Position numbers and translations under genes: made by a program. A model generated the notes under the pieces. That model was given only the letters and a program-made list of their open reading frames with translations, did not search any database and was not told the DNA's origin. From Mesoterricola silvestris (GTDB taxonomy: Bacteria > Acidobacteriota > Holophagae > Holophagales > Holophagaceae): a stretch of 64,000 nucleotides of DNA. The stretch spans positions 1,240,001 through 1,304,000 of the forward strand of contig NZ_AP027080.1 in NCBI RefSeq assembly GCF_030295405.1, in the 5' to 3' direction. Below are positions 8,479-22,607 of the stretch, piece after piece. Within the stretch, counting starts at the first letter, position 1. Every line of letters starts with the position of its first letter.

Positions 8479-9912
8479 ATGACTTCCTTGCCCGTCAACC
8501 CCTTCAAGCCGGGATCCTCCCCCAACCGCCCGGCCCCCGCCGGTCCGGTTCCCGCGGGCCTGAATCCGGGCGCGAACAACGAACTGCTGGTGGAACTCCT
8601 CCACGGCCAGCGCCTGGTGTCCACGCTCACCCAGGAGGTTGCCGAGCTCAAGACCAAGCTCGCCCGCAGGACCCACCAGATGGGCGTGCTCCAGCACGTG
8701 GCCGAGATCCTGGCCGCCACCCCCAAGGCCGCCCAGGTGGCCAGCGTGGTGCAGGACGTCTTCGTCCAGGAATTCGGGGCCCGCACCTGCATCGTGTGGA
8801 TGCTGGAGGACAGCGGGGCCTGCTACGAGCCCCGCAGCGCCCACGGCCTGCCCCGGGCCGTGGGGGCCCGCCTGCGCCTTCCCGCCCCCAATCCCTTCCC
8901 CAACGCCCCCATGGTGCTGTTCCAGGACCAGTGGCTGGACCCGTCGGTGCACAAGGGCTATCTGGATCCCCTCCGGCCCACGGAGGACACCGCCCTCTAC
9001 TACGTGCCCTTCGAGAACCAGCTCCTGCTCATGGGCTTCGCCGTCATCGGCCTGGACGCGGGCCGGACCCTGGAGGAGGACCAGAACTCCCTCACCATCC
9101 TCCAGCGCCAGGTGGCCTCCAGCATCTACAACGCCTGGCTTTTCCGGGACCTCGGGAACCAGCGGGACACCCTGCGGCGCCAGACCGGGGAACTGGAGAA
9201 GGCCAACGCCGCCCTGCGGGAGGCGGACCGCTTCCGCAGCGAGTTCCTGGCCCTCACCAGCCACGAGCTGCGCACGCCGCTCACGGGCATCATGGGCTTC
9301 ACGCGCCTGGTCATGGACGGCCTCTACGACGACGAGGAGGAGATGAACCGGATGCTGGCCGACAGCTACAATTCCGGCAAGCACCTCCTGGACCTCCTCA
9401 ACGACATCCTGGACCTGGCCAAGATCGAGAGCGGCCGCATGCAGATCCGCATCGATCCCTGCGCCCTGGCGGGCCTCATGGACGAGGTGAGGACCATCGT
9501 CCAGGCCTACCCCCGCAGCCCCGGGGTGGAGCTGGTCTGGCCCGAGGGCCTGGAGGCCATGCCCGAGGTGCTGGCGGACTCCGGGCGCCTGAAGCAGGTG
9601 CTCATCAACCTCCTCTCCAACGCCCTGAAGTTCACCAAGGAGGGCGCCGTCACCGTGGCCGTGGAGCGGGGCATCGGCGAGATCGCCCTGTGCGTGGCCG
9701 ACACCGGCATCGGCGTCTCCCGGGAGGCCCAGACCCGCCTCTTCCAGAAATTCGTCCAGGCCGACGGCGGCCACTCCCGGGAGTACGGCGGCACCGGCCT
9801 GGGCCTGGTCATCTGCAAACACCTCATGGAAATGATGAACGGCACCATCGCCTTGGCGAGCGAGGGAGAGGGCAAGGGGACGACCATGACCCTCACGCTG
9901 CCCATCGCCTAG
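8479..9912 (+). CDS. Cytosolic GAF-domain sensor histidine kinase
   Basis: The 477-residue protein has no membrane segment. A Pro-rich N-terminus and short coiled coil (about 40-70) precede a GAF-like sensor domain (about 75-220). A helical linker follows, then the HisKA domain with His262 in LTSHELRTPLTGIMGF. The ATP-binding domain has the N box INLLSNALKFTKEG, G1 DTGIG, the F box and G2 GGTGLGLVI. Downstream there is no regulator gene, only a 527-bp non-coding stretch, so this is an orphan kinase. It diverges from the kinase-sigma-anti-sigma operon across a 98-bp shared promoter region. Confidence 0.93.
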   Translation: MTSLPVNPFKPGSSPNRPAPAGPVPAGLNPGANNELLVELLHGQRLVSTLTQEVAELKTKLARRTHQMGVLQHVAEILAATPKAAQVASVVQDVFVQEFGARTCIVWMLEDSGACYEPRSAHGLPRAVGARLRLPAPNPFPNAPMVLFQDQWLDPSVHKGYLDPLRPTEDTALYYVPFENQLLLMGFAVIGLDAGRTLEEDQNSLTILQRQVASSIYNAWLFRDLGNQRDTLRRQTGELEKANAALREADRFRSEFLALTSHELRTPLTGIMGFTRLVMDGLYDDEEEMNRMLADSYNSGKHLLDLLNDILDLAKIESGRMQIRIDPCALAGLMDEVRTIVQAYPRSPGVELVWPEGLEAMPEVLADSGRLKQVLINLLSNALKFTKEGAVTVAVERGIGEIALCVADTGIGVSREAQTRLFQKFVQADGGHSREYGGTGLGLVICKHLMEMMNGTIALASEGEGKGTTMTLTLPIA

Positions 9913-9927
9913 GTGTCGAAGGTACGG

Positions 9928-10356
9928 GTCCCGGACCTTCGCCCCGGGTCGTCATCGCCGGACAAGCCGGCGATGACGGGGGGTGTGGAAGGGACGCGCG
10001 GGCTGTGCTGCGCCCCTTTCCTTCGCTGGGCGTTCCGGAGCCGGATCGCGGGGGCCCCCCGGCCAGCCCCAGGCAGGTGCGCGGCTTCCAATGCCCTGTT
10101 GGATCCGCTTCGCGTGCGGCGGACCGCCGCCGGAAGCCGCCGACGCTGATCGGCCATTCAACGTCGGCGCGCCCCCTACGCCACGCCCCCCACTCGCAGC
10201 GAGCCCCCCACACCCTAGGCCCCCCCGGAAGGCCCCAGGTCCGACCCACCCGAGCCCCCCAACGAAGCCGGAAGGTGAAACCCAGCCCCATCGTCCGCTT
10301 CGCAACCCAACGAGGCCGGCTTGTCCGGCCGAGTACCCGGGTCGAAGGTCCGGGAC
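9928..10356. repeat. Gene-free element with 22-bp terminal inverted repeats
   Basis: The interval 9913-10439 has no credible gene. It is bounded by GTCCCGGACCTTCGCCCCGG (from 9928) and its near-perfect reverse complement ending at 10356, with a single mismatch over 22 bp. Inside the left end is a perfect 11-bp stem hairpin, GTCATCGCCGG-ACAAG-CCGGCGATGAC (9951-9977). The interior is C-rich with stops in all plausible frames or low-complexity Pro/Arg translations. The block resembles a non-autonomous mobile or intergenic repeat element. A flanking target-site duplication was not recognised. Confidence 0.6.
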
Positions 10357-10439
10357 ACGGGCGCCTACCCAACCTCCCCAAAACCCCGCTTGTCCGAGGA
10401 ATCCGGGCCTCGTAAACTGAGGCATCTTTGGAGACTGGC

Positions 10440-12458
10440 ATGAAACGCAGCGCCCTCGGCATCGCCTTCACCCTTGTCGCCCTCACGGGGCTCCATGCGG
10501 ACGAGGGGATGTGGACCTTCGACAACCTTCCGGCCGCGCGCATGAAGGCGAAGTACGATTTCACGCCGGACGCGGCCTGGCTCGACCATGTGCGCCTGGC
10601 CACGGTGCGCTTCCCCGGGGGGACAGGCTCCTTCATCAGCGGGGACGGCCTGGTCCTCACCAATCACCACGTGGGCCACGGCTGGATCGAGCGGGTCTCC
10701 GACGCCGCCCACGACTACGTCAAGAACGGCTTCGTGGCCAAGGACCGGCAGGCCGAGATCAAGGTTCCCGGGCTGGAGCTGGCCACCCTCATGGCCATGG
10801 AGAACGTCACGGCCCAGGTGGCCAAGGCCGCCGGGGACCCCCGGGAGGCCCTGGCGCGCCTCGCCCGGGAATCCGGGGCCCGCACCGGCCTGCGCTGCGA
10901 GCCCGTCTCCCTCTACCAGGGCGGCGAGTCCTGGCTCTATTCCTACAAGATCCACAAGGACGTGCGCCTGGTCATGGCGCCGGAGTACGCCATCGCGGCC
11001 TTCGGCATGGACTGGGACAACTTCTCCTTCCCCCGCCACGACCTGGATTTCAGCCTCTTCCGCGTCTACGAGGACGGCAAGCCCTACGTGCCGCCCCACC
11101 ACCTGGCCTTCGCGCCCTCGGGGCCGAAGTACGGCGACCTCACCCTGGTGGTGGGCCACCCCGGCCACACCTCCCGCCTGGAGACCCTGGCCCAGATGGA
11201 GGCGTACCGGGACGCCCTGAACCCCGCGCGCATCCGGACCCTGGACCGCACCCGCAAGGCCCTCCACGCCTTCGCGGCCCGGGGCGCCGAGAACGCCCGC
11301 ATCGTCTCGGGCACGCTCATGGGGCTGGAGAACTCCTACAAGGTCTTCGTGAACGAGACCCTGGGCCTCAAGGACAAGGACGCCATGGCCGCGGTGGCCG
11401 CCGCCGAGAAGGAGCTGCGGGAGGCCGTGGCCAAGGATCCGGCCCTGCAGGCCTCCACGGGCCGGAGCTGGGACCTGGTGGCCGAGGCCATGGCCCGGCG
11501 CAGCGCCGTGGCCCGGGAATCCGCGGCCTCCGGCGGGAGCCTGCTGGGCTACGTGCACGGCCTGCTCCGCCTGGAGGAGCAGCTGGCCCTCCCCGCCGCC
11601 CAGCGGGGCGCGGGGTACCGCACCGACAAGGAGCTCGAGGCCCGCAGGGCCGCCCTGGGCGGACGCCGCCTGACGAACCCCGGCCTGGAGCGCGAGACCT
11701 TCCTGGCCGCCGCCAAGGGCGCCCTGGAGGACCTGGGTCCCGACCATCCCTTCGTGAAGGCGCTCCTGGACGGCCGCAGCCCCGAGGCCGCCACCCAGGC
11801 CCTCTTCGACGGCACCCGGCTCCTGGATCCCGCCGCCCGGGCCAAGGCCGCGGAGGCCGGCGTGAAGGGCTCCACGGATCCCCTGGTGGTCCTGGGCCGC
11901 AGGCTCTTCGGCATCCAGGAGTCCCTGCGCAAGGTGCGCGAGGAGACCGAGGCCGTCATCGCCGAGCAGGGCGCCCGCATCGCCCGGGCCCGCTTCCAGG
12001 TGAAGGGCCGGTCCGTGTATCCCGACGCCACCTTCACCCTGCGCCTGTCCTACGGCGCCGTGGAGACCTACCCCGCCAACGGCACCCTGGCCCAGCCCTT
12101 CACCACCTTCGGCGGGCTCTACGACCGCGCCGACGCCTGGGGCCCCGACGCCGAGAACCATTCCTGGGAGCTCCCGGAGCGCTGGGTCAAGGCCCGGGGC
12201 AAGCTGGACATGAGCACCCACTTCGACTTCATCACCACCAACGACATCATCGGCGGCAATTCCGGCTCGCCCATGGTGGACCGCCAGGGCCGCGTGGTGG
12301 GCCTGGTCTTCGACGGCAACATCGAATCCAACGCCGGGCGGTTCTTCTTCGACCCCCGCGTGAACCGCGCCGTTTCCGTGGATGCCTCGGCGATCCTCGA
12401 AGCGCTGTCCAAGGTCTACGACGCCAACCACCTGGCCACCGAAATCAAGTCCAAGTAA
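10440..12458 (+). CDS. S46 family dipeptidyl-peptidase (DPP7-like), first copy
   Basis: Periplasmic serine exopeptidase that removes dipeptides from peptide N-termini. The 672-residue protein has a short signal peptide ending near LHA and the family-typical DEGMWTFDNLP. A chymotrypsin-like catalytic core is split by a helical domain. Visible catalytic elements are LTNHHVGHG (His76/His77), the Asp-containing FPRHDLDFSLFRVYEDGKP, and GGNSGSP with nucleophile Ser608. The residue 18 positions after the Ser is Gly626. The equivalent residue is Gly in DPP7 and Arg in DPP11, so hydrophobic P1 preference is inferred. ATG at 10440 has GGAG at proper spacing. It is followed 13 bp later by a paralogue. 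Confidence 0.94.
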   Translation: MKRSALGIAFTLVALTGLHADEGMWTFDNLPAARMKAKYDFTPDAAWLDHVRLATVRFPGGTGSFISGDGLVLTNHHVGHGWIERVSDAAHDYVKNGFVAKDRQAEIKVPGLELATLMAMENVTAQVAKAAGDPREALARLARESGARTGLRCEPVSLYQGGESWLYSYKIHKDVRLVMAPEYAIAAFGMDWDNFSFPRHDLDFSLFRVYEDGKPYVPPHHLAFAPSGPKYGDLTLVVGHPGHTSRLETLAQMEAYRDALNPARIRTLDRTRKALHAFAARGAENARIVSGTLMGLENSYKVFVNETLGLKDKDAMAAVAAAEKELREAVAKDPALQASTGRSWDLVAEAMARRSAVARESAASGGSLLGYVHGLLRLEEQLALPAAQRGAGYRTDKELEARRAALGGRRLTNPGLERETFLAAAKGALEDLGPDHPFVKALLDGRSPEAATQALFDGTRLLDPAARAKAAEAGVKGSTDPLVVLGRRLFGIQESLRKVREETEAVIAEQGARIARARFQVKGRSVYPDATFTLRLSYGAVETYPANGTLAQPFTTFGGLYDRADAWGPDAENHSWELPERWVKARGKLDMSTHFDFITTNDIIGGNSGSPMVDRQGRVVGLVFDGNIESNAGRFFFDPRVNRAVSVDASAILEALSKVYDANHLATEIKSK

Positions 12459-12471
12459 CCCTGGAGCCCCC

Positions 12472-14538
12472 ATGAAGACGCGATCCCTCCTCCTGCCCCT
12501 GGCAGCCATCCTGGCCTGCGCCCCCGGCCTCCGCGCCGACGAGGGCATGTGGACCTTCGACAATCTGCCCGTGCAGAAGCTCAAGGCCGACTACAACTTC
12601 ACCCCCGACCAGGCCTGGCTGGACCACGTGCGGCTCTCCTCCCTGCGCTTTCCCGGAGGCAGCGGCTCCTTCATCAGCGCCGACGGCCTCGTGCTCACCA
12701 ACCACCACGTGGGCCGCGGCTCCGTGCAGCAGCTTTCCAGCAAGGAGCACGACTACATCCGCGACGGCTTCATCGCCGCCACCCGCGGCGAGGAGCTGAA
12801 GGTCCCCGGCCTCGAGCTCTACACCCTCATGGCCATGGAGAACGTCACCGACCGCGTCAACAAGGCCGTCAAGCCCGGCTCCGACGACAAGGAGGCCCTC
12901 AAGGCCCGCAAGGACGAGCTGGGGAAGATCACCAAGGAGATCCAGGACCGCACCGGCCTCACCGCCGAGGCCGTGACCCTTTACGCGGGCGGCGAGTACT
13001 GGATGTACCAGTACAAGAAGCACACCGACGTCCGCCTCGTCATGGCCCCCGAGCAGCAGATCGCGTTCTTCGGCGGGGATTCCGACAACTTCACCTACCC
13101 CCGGCACAACCTCGACTTCACCCTCTTCCGCGTCTACGAGGACGGCAAGCCCTACCACCCCGCCCACCACCTGAACTGGACGAAGACCGGCGTTAAGAAC
13201 GGCGACCTCACCTTCGTGGTGGGCCACCCCGGCAGCACCGAGCGCCTGGGCACCTCCGCCCAGATGGCCTTCGCCGGCGGGTTCAGCCTGCCCATGCGGA
13301 TCAAGGGCATGGAGCGCCAGCGCCAGGCGCTCCTGGACTACGCCAAGCTCTCCCCCGAGAACAAGCGCCAGGTGGGCTCCACCATCTTCGGCCTGGAGAA
13401 CGGCATCAAGGCCATGAACGGCTACCTCGCCGGCCTCAAGGACCAGGAGGCCATGGCCCGGATCGCCAAGGCCGAGGCGACCCTCAAGGCCAAGGTGGCC
13501 GCCGACCGCGACTCCGACGCGGCCGGGAGCTGGGACGCCATCGAGAAGGCCCTGGAGGTGCAGAAGGCCCTCTTCCAGGAGAGCCAGGCCCTCAACGCCC
13601 GCTCCGGCGCCGCCTATGAAAGCGCCCTCCTGGGCCACGCGCTCACCCTGGTGCGCCTGGCCGAGGAATCCGCCAAGCCCTCCGATCAGCGCCTGGAGGA
13701 GTACCGCGACACGCGCCTGGAGGGCGTGCGCAAGCGCCTCCTGGTGAACCGTCCCTTCTACCCCGCCCTCGAGACCGCCATGTTCACCTTCGGCCTCACG
13801 GAATCCGCCGGCACCCCGCTGGTGGCCTCCATCCTGGGGGGACGCACCCCCGCCGAATTCGCCAAGGCCGCCGTGGACGGCTCCCGCCTGAACGACCCCG
13901 CCGTGCGCAAGGCCCTGGTGGAAGGCGGCAAGAAGGCCATCGACGCCAGCCAGGACCCCATGATCGTCCTGGCCCGGAAGATCGACGGCCCCAACCGCGA
14001 GTTCCGCCGCAAGCTGGAGGACCAGGTCACCTCCGTCCTGGCCGAGCACGGCGGCCGCATCGCCAAGGCCCGCTTCAAGGCCTACGGCAAGAGCGTCTAC
14101 CCCGACGCCACCTTCACCCTGCGCATGACCTACGGCCCCGTGGCCTCGTACCCCGCCAACGGCACCCACATCCAGCCCTTCACCACCCTGGGCGGCCTCT
14201 ACGACCGCGCCGCGGCCTGGGGCCCCGAGGCCGAGAACGGCGCCTGGAGCCTGCCCAAGCGCTGGATCGAGAACCGCTCCAAGGTGAACCCCGACACCCC
14301 CTTCGTCTTCGCCCACGCCGTGGACATCATCGGCGGCAACTCCGGCTCCCCCGTCATCGACCGCAAGGGCGACCTCATCGGCCTGATCTTCGACGGCAAC
14401 ATCGAGAGCCTCCCCGGCCACTTCTTCTACGACGGCAAGGTCAACCGCGGCATCGCCGTGGACGCCCGCGCCATCCTGGAGTCCCTGGACAAGGTCTACG
14501 CCGACAAGCCCATCGTCCACGAGATCCTCGGCAAGTAG
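12472..14538 (+). CDS. S46 family dipeptidyl-peptidase (DPP7-like), second copy
   Basis: A 688-residue paralogue of the upstream peptidase with the same layout: signal peptide, DEGMWTFDNLPV, LTNHHVGRG (His78/His79), YPRHNLDFTLFRVYEDGKP, and GGNSGSPVIDRKGDLIGLIF with nucleophile Ser624. Gly642 occupies the position that separates DPP7 (Gly) from DPP11 (Arg). It differs from copy one mainly in a longer, Lys-rich helical insertion after residue 120. The start ATG at 12472 is preceded by GGAG. The two genes form a tandem operon closed by a strong hairpin. Together they probably process imported or extracellular peptides for amino-acid nutrition. Confidence 0.94.
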   Translation: MKTRSLLLPLAAILACAPGLRADEGMWTFDNLPVQKLKADYNFTPDQAWLDHVRLSSLRFPGGSGSFISADGLVLTNHHVGRGSVQQLSSKEHDYIRDGFIAATRGEELKVPGLELYTLMAMENVTDRVNKAVKPGSDDKEALKARKDELGKITKEIQDRTGLTAEAVTLYAGGEYWMYQYKKHTDVRLVMAPEQQIAFFGGDSDNFTYPRHNLDFTLFRVYEDGKPYHPAHHLNWTKTGVKNGDLTFVVGHPGSTERLGTSAQMAFAGGFSLPMRIKGMERQRQALLDYAKLSPENKRQVGSTIFGLENGIKAMNGYLAGLKDQEAMARIAKAEATLKAKVAADRDSDAAGSWDAIEKALEVQKALFQESQALNARSGAAYESALLGHALTLVRLAEESAKPSDQRLEEYRDTRLEGVRKRLLVNRPFYPALETAMFTFGLTESAGTPLVASILGGRTPAEFAKAAVDGSRLNDPAVRKALVEGGKKAIDASQDPMIVLARKIDGPNREFRRKLEDQVTSVLAEHGGRIAKARFKAYGKSVYPDATFTLRMTYGPVASYPANGTHIQPFTTLGGLYDRAAAWGPEAENGAWSLPKRWIENRSKVNPDTPFVFAHAVDIIGGNSGSPVIDRKGDLIGLIFDGNIESLPGHFFYDGKVNRGIAVDARAILESLDKVYADKPIVHEILGK

Positions 14539-19611: not shown

Positions 19612-19664
19612 GTTCCCCCTCCAGGCCGATCCGGATCCGAAGACCGCGGCTTCGTCCTTCTGAA

Positions 19665-20003
19665 TCAGGCGCTTGTGGGTGCTGCGTGGAGAGACAACCC
19701 CAGAGCCCGGACTACCTTGAGGAACGTGATCATTTCTGGATTTCCATCCTCGGACAACGCCTTGTAGAGCGATTCTCGGCCAAGGCCCGCCTTTCGAGCT
19801 ATTTCTGACATGCCCTTCGCGCGGGCAATGGTGCCAATGGCCTGAAGAATGACCTTCGGGTCTCCGTCCTCGAGAGCAGCTTCAAGGTAGGCTGCGATCT
19901 GCTCATCGTTTTGGAGATAGCGGGCGGCATCGTAGGGGCGAGTGCGTGCACGGACCTTCGCCGGGTCCAGAGCGGGAACCGTGGAAGCTTTGGCGGTGGC
20001 CAT
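19665..20003 (-). CDS. Addiction-module antidote-type HTH protein, no toxin partner
   Basis: A 112-residue protein of the HigA-like/putative addiction module antidote family. The conserved segments are RPYDAARYLQNDEQIAAYLEAAL and the helix-turn-helix GMSEIARKAGLGRESLYKALS, followed by GNPEMITFLKVVRALGLSL. In this family the toxin gene usually lies immediately upstream. Here the 104 bp upstream contain no RelE/HigB-like reading frame, only a short palindrome and the end of another gene. It appears to be an orphan antitoxin, possibly acting as a simple repressor. Confidence 0.85.
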   Translation of the reverse strand: MATAKASTVPALDPAKVRARTRPYDAARYLQNDEQIAAYLEAALEDGDPKVILQAIGTIARAKGMSEIARKAGLGRESLYKALSEDGNPEMITFLKVVRALGLSLHAAPTSA

Positions 20004-20040
20004 GTCAGGACTCTCCCGAGAACCTCTCTCATGACGTAAT

Positions 20041-20056
20041 GTATCCCATAGGATAC
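20041..20056. promoter_or_regulatory. Palindromic operator upstream of the antitoxin-like gene
   Basis: GTATCC-CATA-GGATAC has perfect 6-bp arms and lies 38 bp upstream of the antitoxin-like start codon. It is a plausible autoregulatory binding site for the HTH protein. This is positional inference only. Confidence 0.5.
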
Positions 20057-20107
20057 AAACCGCAAGGGGAAGATGCAGGTTTTTCAGAATCCGTCAGGGG
20101 CCCGCCC

Positions 20108-20368
20108 TCACTTCCCCTTGGCGTTCTTCGGGGTCCCGTCCTTCTCCAGATACTTGTCCGGATTCCGTTCCAGGTCCTTGCCGCAGTTGGCGCAGCACAC
20201 GCGGTAGCTCCGGCCGCGGACGGCGACGGTGGGGCTCTTGGTGTCCACCTTCATGGGGCAGGTGGGGCAGACCAGTTCGTGGGGGCGGGCTGAGGGGTGG
20301 CCAGGGCGATGAGGGGAAGGGCGAGCCAGGGAAGGGGCATGGGGACTCCGGGGTGCGGGGGAGAGCAT
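20108..20368 (-). CDS. Small YHS/TRASH-like metal-binding protein, probable frameshift after the signal peptide
   Basis: The C-terminal half (CPTCPMKVDTKSP, RGRSYRVCCANCGKDL, NPDKYLEKDGT) resembles YHS-type metal-binding domains with CxxC and CCxxC cysteines. In this frame the N-terminus from ATG 20368 is Pro/His/Arg-rich and not signal-like. In the next frame, ATG at 20340 gives MPLPWLALPLIALATPQPAP, a good signal peptide that runs in register up to the cysteine domain but is out of frame by one base. The junction lies in a G-rich run (20280-20300). An indel or sequence error in that run is likely. The adjacent copper receptor suggests copper handling. Confidence 0.65.
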   Translation of the reverse strand: MLSPAPRSPHAPSLARPSPHRPGHPSARPHELVCPTCPMKVDTKSPTVAVRGRSYRVCCANCGKDLERNPDKYLEKDGTPKNAKGK

Positions 20369-20459
20369 GGCAGGGTCCCGGGGGCGCCCGGAAGGGCGCG
20401 CCCCTGCGTCATTTTGCCGCAGGGACGGGGGGGGCGGGAGGAGGTAGGGTTGAGGAAAC

Positions 20460-22607
20460 GTGACAGTTCGAGTCTTGTTTCGAGGGTGGAGTCGGGCCCT
20501 CCTGGAGGTTTCCGTGGGCGTGGGGCGCGTGGGCGGGTTCTGGATGGTGGCGGCTTCCCTGCCGGTGATGGCGGGGGGGGCGCCGGAGGGGCCGAAGGAG
20601 GGGAAGGTCCGGGAGACGCCCTCGGCGGTGGTGGAGGTGACGGCGCCGCTGCCCTCGGAACCGCTGGTGACGGTCCTGGATCCCCGGGGGGCGCGCCAGC
20701 CGGTGCCCGCCCAGGACGGAGCGGATGGCCTGAGGACCGTGCCGGGCTTTTCCGTCGTGCGCAAGGGGGGCAGTGACGGGGATCCGGTGCTGCGGGGCAT
20801 GGCCGGGTCGAGGCTGCTCCTGCTCCTGGACGGGGAGCAGATCCTGGGCGGGTGCGGCGGGAGGATGGACCCTCCCACGGCCTACGTCTTCCCGGAAAGC
20901 TTCGACCGCATCACGGTGGTGAAGGGGCCCCAGACGGTGCTCCACGGCCCGGGCAACTCGGCCGGGACGGTCCTTTTCGAGCGCACCCGGGAGCGGCTCG
21001 CCGGGCCTTCCGTGAAGGGCTACGCCAGCGCCATGGGCGGGAGCTTCGGGCGCGACGACGAGGTGCTGGACGTCACCGGCGGGAACCGGGACATCGTCGT
21101 CCGGGGCACGGGAACCCGGTCCCACGCGGGGGATTTCCGGGACGGGGGCGGGGCCTCCGTGCACAGCTTCCACACCCGCTGGAGCGCGAACCTGGCCCTG
21201 GGCTGGACCCCCGGGGACGACACCCGCCTGGAGGTGACCACGGCCCGCAGCGACGGCGAGGCCGCCTACGCCGACCGGGGCGTGGACGGCACCCGGTTCC
21301 GGCGGGAGAACGCCGGCTTCCGGGCGGAGTTCCGCCGGGTGGCGTCCTGGCTGGAGAAGGTGGAGTTCCAGGTCTTCCGGAACTACGTGGACCACATCAT
21401 GGACAACTACTCCCTGCGGACCTTCACGCCCACGGTGATGGCCCCGGAGCCCTCTGCCATGAATCCCGATCGCACCACCACGGGGGGGCGGCTGGCGGGG
21501 GAGCTGCGCCTGGGGGCCTCGACCCTGGCCACCCTGGGGCTGGATGCCCAGCGCAACGAGCACACGGGGCGCATGAGCATGATGCAGTGGTCCATGCCCG
21601 AGGAGGGGATGCCCCGGGTGGCCGATGCGCGGTTCCGGAACGCGGGCCTCTTCGGGGAGGCGCGCCACGCGTTCACCGGGGCGGACCGGGTCGTGGGGGG
21701 CCTGCGGGTGGACCGGTGGCGGGCGGAGGATCCGCGGCCGCGGGTGTCCACGGGCATGATGGGCAGCTCGCCCAATCCCACCGCCGGCGCCCGGCGGAAG
21801 GAGACCCTGGGCGGCGGGTTCCTGCGGTACGAGCGGGGCCTGCCGGAGGAAGCCACCTGGTACGCCGGGATCGGCCGGGCCGAGCGGTTCCCGGACTACT
21901 GGGAGGCCATCGCCAAGGAGAGCCTGGCCTCGGTCAGCGCCTTCGGCACCCGGCCCGAGCGCACCACCCAGGTGGACCTGGGGTGGATCCGCCGCGCGGG
22001 CCCCCTCCAGGGCTCCCTTTCGGTGTTCGCCAACCGGGTTTCGGATTACATCCTGATCCAGTCCAATGTGATGAAACCCGCCGGCATGATGGGGACCCGC
22101 GCGGCGACCGTCACCCGCAACGTGGACGCCGCCAGCTACGGCGGGGAGGCCACCGGGATGGTGCGCTTCGCCGGGGGGCTTCGCCTGGATGGGAGCCTGG
22201 CCTACGTGCGGGGGCGGAACCGCACCGATGGGCTGGCCCTGGCCCAGATTCCCCCCCTGGAGGCCCGCCTGGGAATCGTCTACCAGGGGGACACCTGGTC
22301 GGCAGGCCTGCTGACCCGGGGGGTGGCGCGCCAGGACCGGGTGGCGGTGAACCAGGGCACCATCGTGGGCCAGGACCTGGGGCCCACGGGGGGATTCGGG
22401 GTGCTCTCCCTCAACGGGGCCTGGAACGCGGCCCCCGGCCTCGTGGTTTCCTTCGGGGTGGACAACCTCGCCAACCGCCTTTACGCCGAGCACGTCAGCC
22501 GCGGGGCGACCGCGGTTCCCGGCTACGCCCCGCAGACCCTCCGGGTGGGGGAACCGGGCCGGAACCTCTGGGTCAAGCTGGCCTATGCATTCGGGGCGTG
22601 CCATTGA
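20460..22607 (+). CDS. TonB-dependent copper receptor, OprC/NosA-like
   Basis: Outer-membrane beta-barrel for copper import, energised by TonB. The plug domain contains GFSVVRKGGSDGDPVLRGM and the OprC-like GGCGGRMDPPTAYVFPESFD, with the Cys-x3-Met that binds copper in OprC. A His/Met-rich loop (EHTGRMSMMQWSM) supplies likely further copper ligands. The barrel ends in a C-terminal strand (LWVKLAYAFGACH). The reading frame opens at GTG 20460. The true start may be an internal GTG or ATG before VAASLPVMA, which looks like a signal peptide end. It is followed by redox-sensing regB/regA-type genes, with the YHS protein divergent. Confidence 0.92.
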   Translation: MTVRVLFRGWSRALLEVSVGVGRVGGFWMVAASLPVMAGGAPEGPKEGKVRETPSAVVEVTAPLPSEPLVTVLDPRGARQPVPAQDGADGLRTVPGFSVVRKGGSDGDPVLRGMAGSRLLLLLDGEQILGGCGGRMDPPTAYVFPESFDRITVVKGPQTVLHGPGNSAGTVLFERTRERLAGPSVKGYASAMGGSFGRDDEVLDVTGGNRDIVVRGTGTRSHAGDFRDGGGASVHSFHTRWSANLALGWTPGDDTRLEVTTARSDGEAAYADRGVDGTRFRRENAGFRAEFRRVASWLEKVEFQVFRNYVDHIMDNYSLRTFTPTVMAPEPSAMNPDRTTTGGRLAGELRLGASTLATLGLDAQRNEHTGRMSMMQWSMPEEGMPRVADARFRNAGLFGEARHAFTGADRVVGGLRVDRWRAEDPRPRVSTGMMGSSPNPTAGARRKETLGGGFLRYERGLPEEATWYAGIGRAERFPDYWEAIAKESLASVSAFGTRPERTTQVDLGWIRRAGPLQGSLSVFANRVSDYILIQSNVMKPAGMMGTRAATVTRNVDAASYGGEATGMVRFAGGLRLDGSLAYVRGRNRTDGLALAQIPPLEARLGIVYQGDTWSAGLLTRGVARQDRVAVNQGTIVGQDLGPTGGFGVLSLNGAWNAAPGLVVSFGVDNLANRLYAEHVSRGATAVPGYAPQTLRVGEPGRNLWVKLAYAFGACH

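Follow-up and report, generated by a model that had tools for sequence, protein, structure and literature searches.

The gene-free block at 9928–10356 of the window, that is, of the whole 64 kb stretch that was analysed (positions 1,240,001–1,304,000 of the single 4.99 Mb contig of Mesoterricola silvestris), is with a probability of about 0.88 an old copy of a MITE. It would have been inserted at CTAG, with duplication of this target, by a transposase acting in trans, for which the IS5 family (DUF4096 type) is the most likely source. The kind of element, a miniature transposon with a gene-sparing target, is already known. As far as our searches reach, the family itself, the link between CTAG and the stop codon, and the covarying hairpin cassette are new; no description of the window family was found in the open-licence PMC literature.

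The element occupies 9913–10376 (plus strand, outer edges within about 10 bp) and belongs to an old subfamily; it was delimited by homology to dispersed copies, by matches of an end model at 9902–9980 and 10306–10384, and by its absence from four genomes of the same genus (G001, G002, G004 and G005). Upstream lies a histidine kinase gene (8479–9912, plus strand; ORF with the Pfam domains HisKA and HATPase_c), whose TAG stop is contained in a CTAG at the left edge of the element (9909–9912). This CTAG would be the insertion target, judging from its sequence, the CTAG census and the CTAG flanks of several young copies. From the kinase stop (9912) to the start of the downstream S46 peptidase gene (10440–12458, plus strand; ORF, Pfam PF10459) there are 527 bp, ending in an ancestral spacer plus peptidase leader (10377–10439, plus strand) that aligns with element-free relatives. 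The window copy is of an older, shorter-ended type that abuts the CTAG stop of the kinase, and its own duplication is not visible because the outermost repeat has been lost. The codon-model caller placed no gene in the block, in agreement with the sequence-only reading, and the ORFs that overlap it were judged to be spurious high-GC frames. In the crude gene map, this 527-bp interval ranks second among the gaps, behind one of 902 bp at 19612–20513, so that the claim of the largest non-coding interval was not confirmed. As a separate observation, two similar tandem genes occupy 10440–14538, the first being the S46 peptidase identified by Pfam, and both carry DEGMWTFDNLP near their start.

The terminal inverted repeats, represented by the inner conserved part on the left (9925–9949, plus strand) and by 10335–10359 on the right (minus strand), form arms of 25 nt with 92% complementarity; the 22 nt originally reported as inverted repeats are real, with one mismatch, and are the inner part of the full terminal repeat, since young copies show a longer full end. 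The left subterminal hairpin (9950–9978, plus strand), identified from the sequence and from covariation, is perfect as had been stated, with a stem of 12 bp rather than 11 bp and the 5-nt loop ACAAG. The right one (10314–10330, plus strand), recognised in the sequence, is shortened in the window copy to a 6-bp stem with the loop CTTGT, and 10315–10329 also forms a perfect inverted pair of 15 nt with 9957–9971. Eight perfect stems of at least 10 bp were listed in the 64 kb window, six of them with at least 11 bp, and ten Markov controls contained 0–2 stems of at least 11 bp each; therefore, the left hairpin is not expected by chance, yet it is not unique in the window. The non-coding core between the hairpins (9979–10313, plus strand) is about 71–78% identical to the best other copies and C-rich on its right side, so that the biased composition described for the interior holds for the right half (51% C at 10160–10310, against about 38% in neighbouring genes).

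Searching its own genome with the block gave 78 matches on both strands from the best 40 of 204 candidates; the longer matches were mostly 71–86% identical, with one long match at 68%. A young copy used as query retrieved ten further near-full-length relatives at 85–93% identity, and the terminal repeats of this copy are about 72 bp long. The left side of a young copy (e.g., L048, 527 bp) consists of CTAG, GAGCCTGGCTACGTAATCG-TACGTGTCCCGGACGTTCGCCCTG-TTT and the hairpin CGTCATCGCCGG-CCAAG-CCGGCGATGACG; on the right, a gene-less core is followed by a different hairpin (CGTTGCTGCGGGC-TTG-GCCCGCAGCAACG), the inverted end and a closing CTAG or variant, the MITE tip being GAGCCTGTC/GAGCCTGGC. From 36 ends, a covariance model covering end and hairpin was built (R1), which matched all 150 candidates scored (the best 150 of 7,099 first-look candidates, E up to 0.01). 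By this model, the family is present at no fewer than about 94 places in its own 4.99 Mb chromosome, as 55 pairs and 39 single ends. The paired copies are 126–557 bp long (six of 126–131 bp, one of 294 bp and 48 of 352–557 bp). With E above 1e-4, five single ends count as weak, and at least four single ends, or up to seven if weak or partial matches are counted, gained a partner in a later model search.

Empty sites at the kinase/S46-peptidase junction in the four same-genus genomes prove the insertion at the window locus. In G001, G002, G004 and G005, a single alignment spans the two flanks and the element is absent; the kinase stop, which is TGA or TAG, is followed there by a short spacer and then by the peptidase leader, with computed kinase/S46 spacers of 55 and 70 bp in two relatives versus 527 bp here; in G003, the two flanks match about 1.2 kb apart. 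The search of the genus used the joined flanks of 14 copies, with 220 bp per side. The element was absent from 16 of the 20 relative loci fetched (9 of the 14 queried sites), with 0–53 bp between the aligned flanks, and the remaining four (L139, L141, L142 and L143, from two sites) hold other sequence; at the relative's site corresponding to L046, the left flank aligns poorly. Copies dispersed on both strands, together with the four empty sites at the window locus, support the non-autonomous mobile element that the sequence-only reading had suggested. The search it proposed for dispersed copies and empty sites found both, and the block is clearly not a unique sequence that is syntenic in all relatives. 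The family thus has the features of MITEs, namely short elements without coding capacity, terminal inverted repeats, and dispersal in multiple copies with empty sites.

The named relatives of the kinase gene place the lineage in Holophagaceae, and an HMM of the terminal repeat matched none of the 29 kinase-gene loci from named genomes. In a more distant relative (L166), 1,180 bp lie between the kinase and S46 genes, and neither this HMM nor R1 matches there. In a search of 41 genomes, the window copy had matches outside its own genome only in G002 and G004, both of the genus, and marginal ones in G009 and G022. The young copy matched G001, G002, G004 and G005, mostly at the ends, and had no match in G003. 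A plasmid or phage origin was rejected, as one young copy had no match among 72,556 plasmid records and the window copy had none among 50,697 phage records.

The insertion target is rare: 14 CTAG were observed in the 64 kb window versus 55 expected from a Markov model and 175 from base composition, with 9 of them overlapping a stop codon. Avoidance of CTAG is described for Haloquadratum in PMC3119063. By model coordinates, CTAG stands exactly at both tips in 3 of the 55 paired copies (L057, L041 and L048), and other paired copies have a tip that is altered by mutation, displaced or missing. TTAG stands on either side of L053, and the empty sites corresponding to L052 and L046 show a single CTAG. 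Some copies, therefore, carry the target duplication of a MITE, as CTAG or TTAG on both sides. The TTAG pair of L053 matches the 4-bp duplication type, CTAG/YTAA, given for MITEPsy1 in PMC3189936, and a CTAG/YTAA target duplicated in this way is what is expected of an IS5-derived MITE. At CTAG, a duplication of TA (2 bp) and one of CTAG (4 bp) look alike, so that it may be either.

The end pattern of the family is also found more widely. With up to three mismatches allowed, its outer 23 bp matched 160 times, in 29 of the 77 Holophagaceae genomes, counting the own genome and the genus; a reversed control matched 5 times. The inspected pairs outside the window family were mostly copies of a second gene-less repeat of about 275 bp, mostly 275–277 bp, with the ends CTAGGAGCCTGTC(T/C)A(C/A)GTA(A/T)T. 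This repeat shares with the window family the outer part of the terminal repeat, the CTAG flanks and the lack of any transposase seen, whereas its core and inner repeat are different; R1 matched none of the 38 loci examined. The cores are related between genera (e.g., 69% over 276 bp for L097 versus L228). Copies with CTAG ends were observed in several Holophagaceae genera (L212–L237), together with short forms of 59–63 bp, and one 276-bp MITE (L097:978–1333) lies between the arms of an inverted repeat (acacagtagtg-CTAG ... CTAG-cactactgtgt) and looks as though it had entered the centre of a palindrome.

Concerning the transposase, DUF4096 (IS5-type) gave five matches in the own genome, one of them below the cut-off. 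Two belong to a 1500-bp IS in CTAG with the ends GGGCTGTCGGCAAA, and one of these adjoins a 276-type MITE. In G001, 54 DUF4096 matches were obtained, and the nine IS inspected all start and end at CTAG. With two further CTAG-flanked types in Holophagaceae, there are four types in all, with the tips GGCCTGTTTTCAAA, GGCCTGTTAACACT, GGGCTGTCGGCAAA and GCTGTGTTCGGAAT, which appear similar to the MITE tip in style only. The IS of the own genome (L105/L108) is like the window MITE in having CTAG on both sides and a comparable tip (GGGCTGTC versus GAGCCTGTC); unlike the MITE, it encodes a transposase and has different terminal repeats. Copies of this IS type stand near 0.14 and 0.84 Mb of the own genome, and L108, the one near 0.14 Mb, also carries a PDDEXK_3 (PF13366) gene beside the transposase (L108:2321–2758). 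Recognisable CTAG-flanked ends were seen in only 8 of 32 DUF4096 loci, and L108 merely adjoins a MITE; the MITE's own ends surrounded a transposase in none of the 32, some of which are cut by contig ends. In the sets of 15 and 26 loci with MITE-type ends that were inspected among the matches listed, several of them single-ended, paired ends bound short elements only, except in L094, where an IS630 element lies within a MITE. As no autonomous element with the MITE's ends was found among these loci, we infer the helper from target and tip style only. Orphan MITEs are common.

Mobilisation by an IS630/Tc1-type transposase, with duplication of TA inside CTAG, was also considered and is unlikely. 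It would be consistent with an IS630 element of G004 (DDE_3), which likewise sits in CTAG and is nested in a related 276-bp MITE, and CTAGGAGCC...GGCTCCTAG fits a TA duplication equally well, the short remnant L096 even better. However, the MITE tip does not resemble that of the IS630 element, TGTAGGCCGCCAGAA, the TTAG pair of L053 fits a 4-bp duplication with one mutation fewer, and a search for PF13358 (IS630) found nothing in the own genome, which shows the strongest amplification of the family of all genomes searched; for this last reason, IS630 was rejected as the own-genome helper. Beyond this question, the G004 locus shows the 276-bp MITE split by the IS630 element, itself in a CTAG inside the MITE (L094:752–2893), and a PDDEXK_3 (PF13366) gene again stands beside the transposase (L094:863–1318). 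Elsewhere, a MITE sits on an IS630 end.

Under the preferred reading, a MITE mobilised in trans by an IS5-type enzyme, a transposase from elsewhere would recognise the terminal repeats and insert the element at CTAG, whereby the target would be duplicated. CTAG is avoided inside genes and survives mostly within TAG stop codons, and the duplication would restore the stop codon; insertions at gene 3' ends would thus be harmless, with the best survival between convergent genes. The gene context, determined by a crude codon-model caller, showed that, of 110 element ends, 81 either overlap the 3' end of a gene or come within 30 bp of one, with 54 TAG, 17 TGA, 9 TAA and 1 undetermined stop. Such a position of the ends accords with CTAG being rare and mostly at stops. 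The excess of TAG at element-bordering stops (54/81 versus 15/31 in window genes) was not significant by itself (p 0.09).

Elements were located between convergent genes in 34 of 55 cases and next to a one-sided 3' end in 16; four had neither, and one had a 3' end on one side and no gene call on the other. With the same caller and this single 64 kb window as the comparison set, 4 of 40 junctions were convergent (p 2e-7; 3 of 43 near the window edges excluded), as were 2 of 13 CTAG sites (p 0.004; 1 of 14 excluded). The convergent bias therefore exceeds the effect of CTAG alone, and selection probably has a role in it. In this family, the target choice of a transposon would be tied to a genome-wide bias, the avoidance of CTAG except in TAG stops, and this link would explain how a repeat reached about 90 places without breaking genes.

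The subterminal hairpin is a maintained feature, while its arms and the flanking repeat vary. Across 36 ends, 96% of stem cells are paired and two-sided changes occur in 8 of 12 pairs, and pairing falls to 19–59% in slid controls. The 150 model-fitted matches (of 198), some of which are palindrome echoes on the other strand, show two-sided changes in 10 of 12 pairs, with 329 two-sided, 9 one-sided (G-U) and 63 unpaired cells; these counts refer to sequences rather than events and are inflated by subfamily inheritance. In 78 gap-free 81-nt ends, hand-picked from the model list, 97.8% of pairs form, whereas arms drifting in the manner of the inner repeat would be expected to give 76.8%, and the stem is perfect in 60 of these ends. 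The difference from the overall consensus is 18% for the hairpin arms and 13% for the inner repeat, since several stem types exist. Terminal repeats collect changes like the core; the hairpin arms vary but change together.

Among 11 young copies, singletons numbered 0 in 316 sites of the left hairpin and 88 in 3,982 of the core; for the right hairpin, there were 2 in 290 sites when L053 was left out and 11 in 319 when it was included. The outcome of the constraint test depends on this one row, being 2 singletons (counted by eye) versus 13.4 expected without the L053 right hairpin (p 0.0002) and 11 versus 14 with it (p 0.26); the changes in the L053 right hairpin are paired on both arms. Matches to the hairpin only also exist (e.g., L187:1710–1741). 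Based on these data, we infer that some process at the DNA or RNA level keeps the arms of the subterminal hairpins paired, and the few G-U intermediates argue for a DNA-level constraint or arm-to-arm copying rather than RNA selection alone.

The covarying hairpin and the fold of 9913–10376, more stable than 100 shuffles (z = −4.6), would also be expected of a structured non-coding RNA locus conserved for RNA function, which the sequence-only reading had offered as its other identity for the block. This explanation is very improbable. Nested inverted repeats would give such stability, four relatives lack the locus at the corresponding position, the cell counts above speak against a purely RNA-level constraint, and no sigma-70-like promoter, the promoter type covered, was found. 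No Rfam family matched the block or 13 related loci at the cut-off, so that the identity was not supported; under permissive settings, the block had four weak matches (three miRNA models and one frameshift element), all of them well short of the cut-off, and an intact RNA gene was rejected since no score exceeded the gathering threshold.

Palindromic hairpins near both ends also recall REP-like palindromes dispersed by RAYT/TIRYT, for which a tyrosine HUH transposase would mobilise the repeat as single-stranded DNA. For Acidobacteria, PMC3733652 describes tyrosine transposases with long inverted repeats on their flanks, which would favour such an origin. The resemblance to the REP or CGTC-tagged palindromes of that text extends to small size, short loops and extragenic position; the window-family palindrome differs in normally lying inside an element with terminal inverted repeats and in its stem of 12 bp, compared with 8–9 bp in the CGTC type. 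PF01797 (Y1_Tnp) had no match in the own genome and is present in G003 and G004; a RAYT/REP-type mobilisation was rejected for its absence from the own genome. Furthermore, DDE transposons characteristically have terminal inverted repeats and duplicate their target, and mobilisation by a tyrosine transposase thus seems highly implausible.

Returning to a MITE moved by an IS5-type transposase, a putative role of its hairpin in termination or mRNA-end protection is possible. The transposon might bring a hairpin cassette to stop codons, which the host would keep as a two-way terminator or mRNA-end protector, mainly between convergent genes; we consider this conceivable but doubtful. An intrinsic terminator inside the block was not supported (1 site versus a shuffle mean of 0.6). 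If the cassette proposal is true, the family would be a mobile terminator system re-tooling gene ends chromosome-wide. The many natural replicates of a gene-3'-end hairpin could allow RNA-level selection to be separated from DNA-level palindrome repair.

Judged by the CTAG/YTAA target, MITEPsy1 of Pseudomonas syringae is the closest known system. According to PMC3189936, it is thought to derive from ISPsy2, an IS5-family element, and is 100 bp long, with 6 insertions tabulated and a duplication of CTAG or YTAA. Compared with MITEPsy1 as presented there, the window family differs in its length of 126–557 bp, its far larger number of places, its other repeat sequence, its covarying subterminal hairpins and its strong bias toward convergent gene ends.
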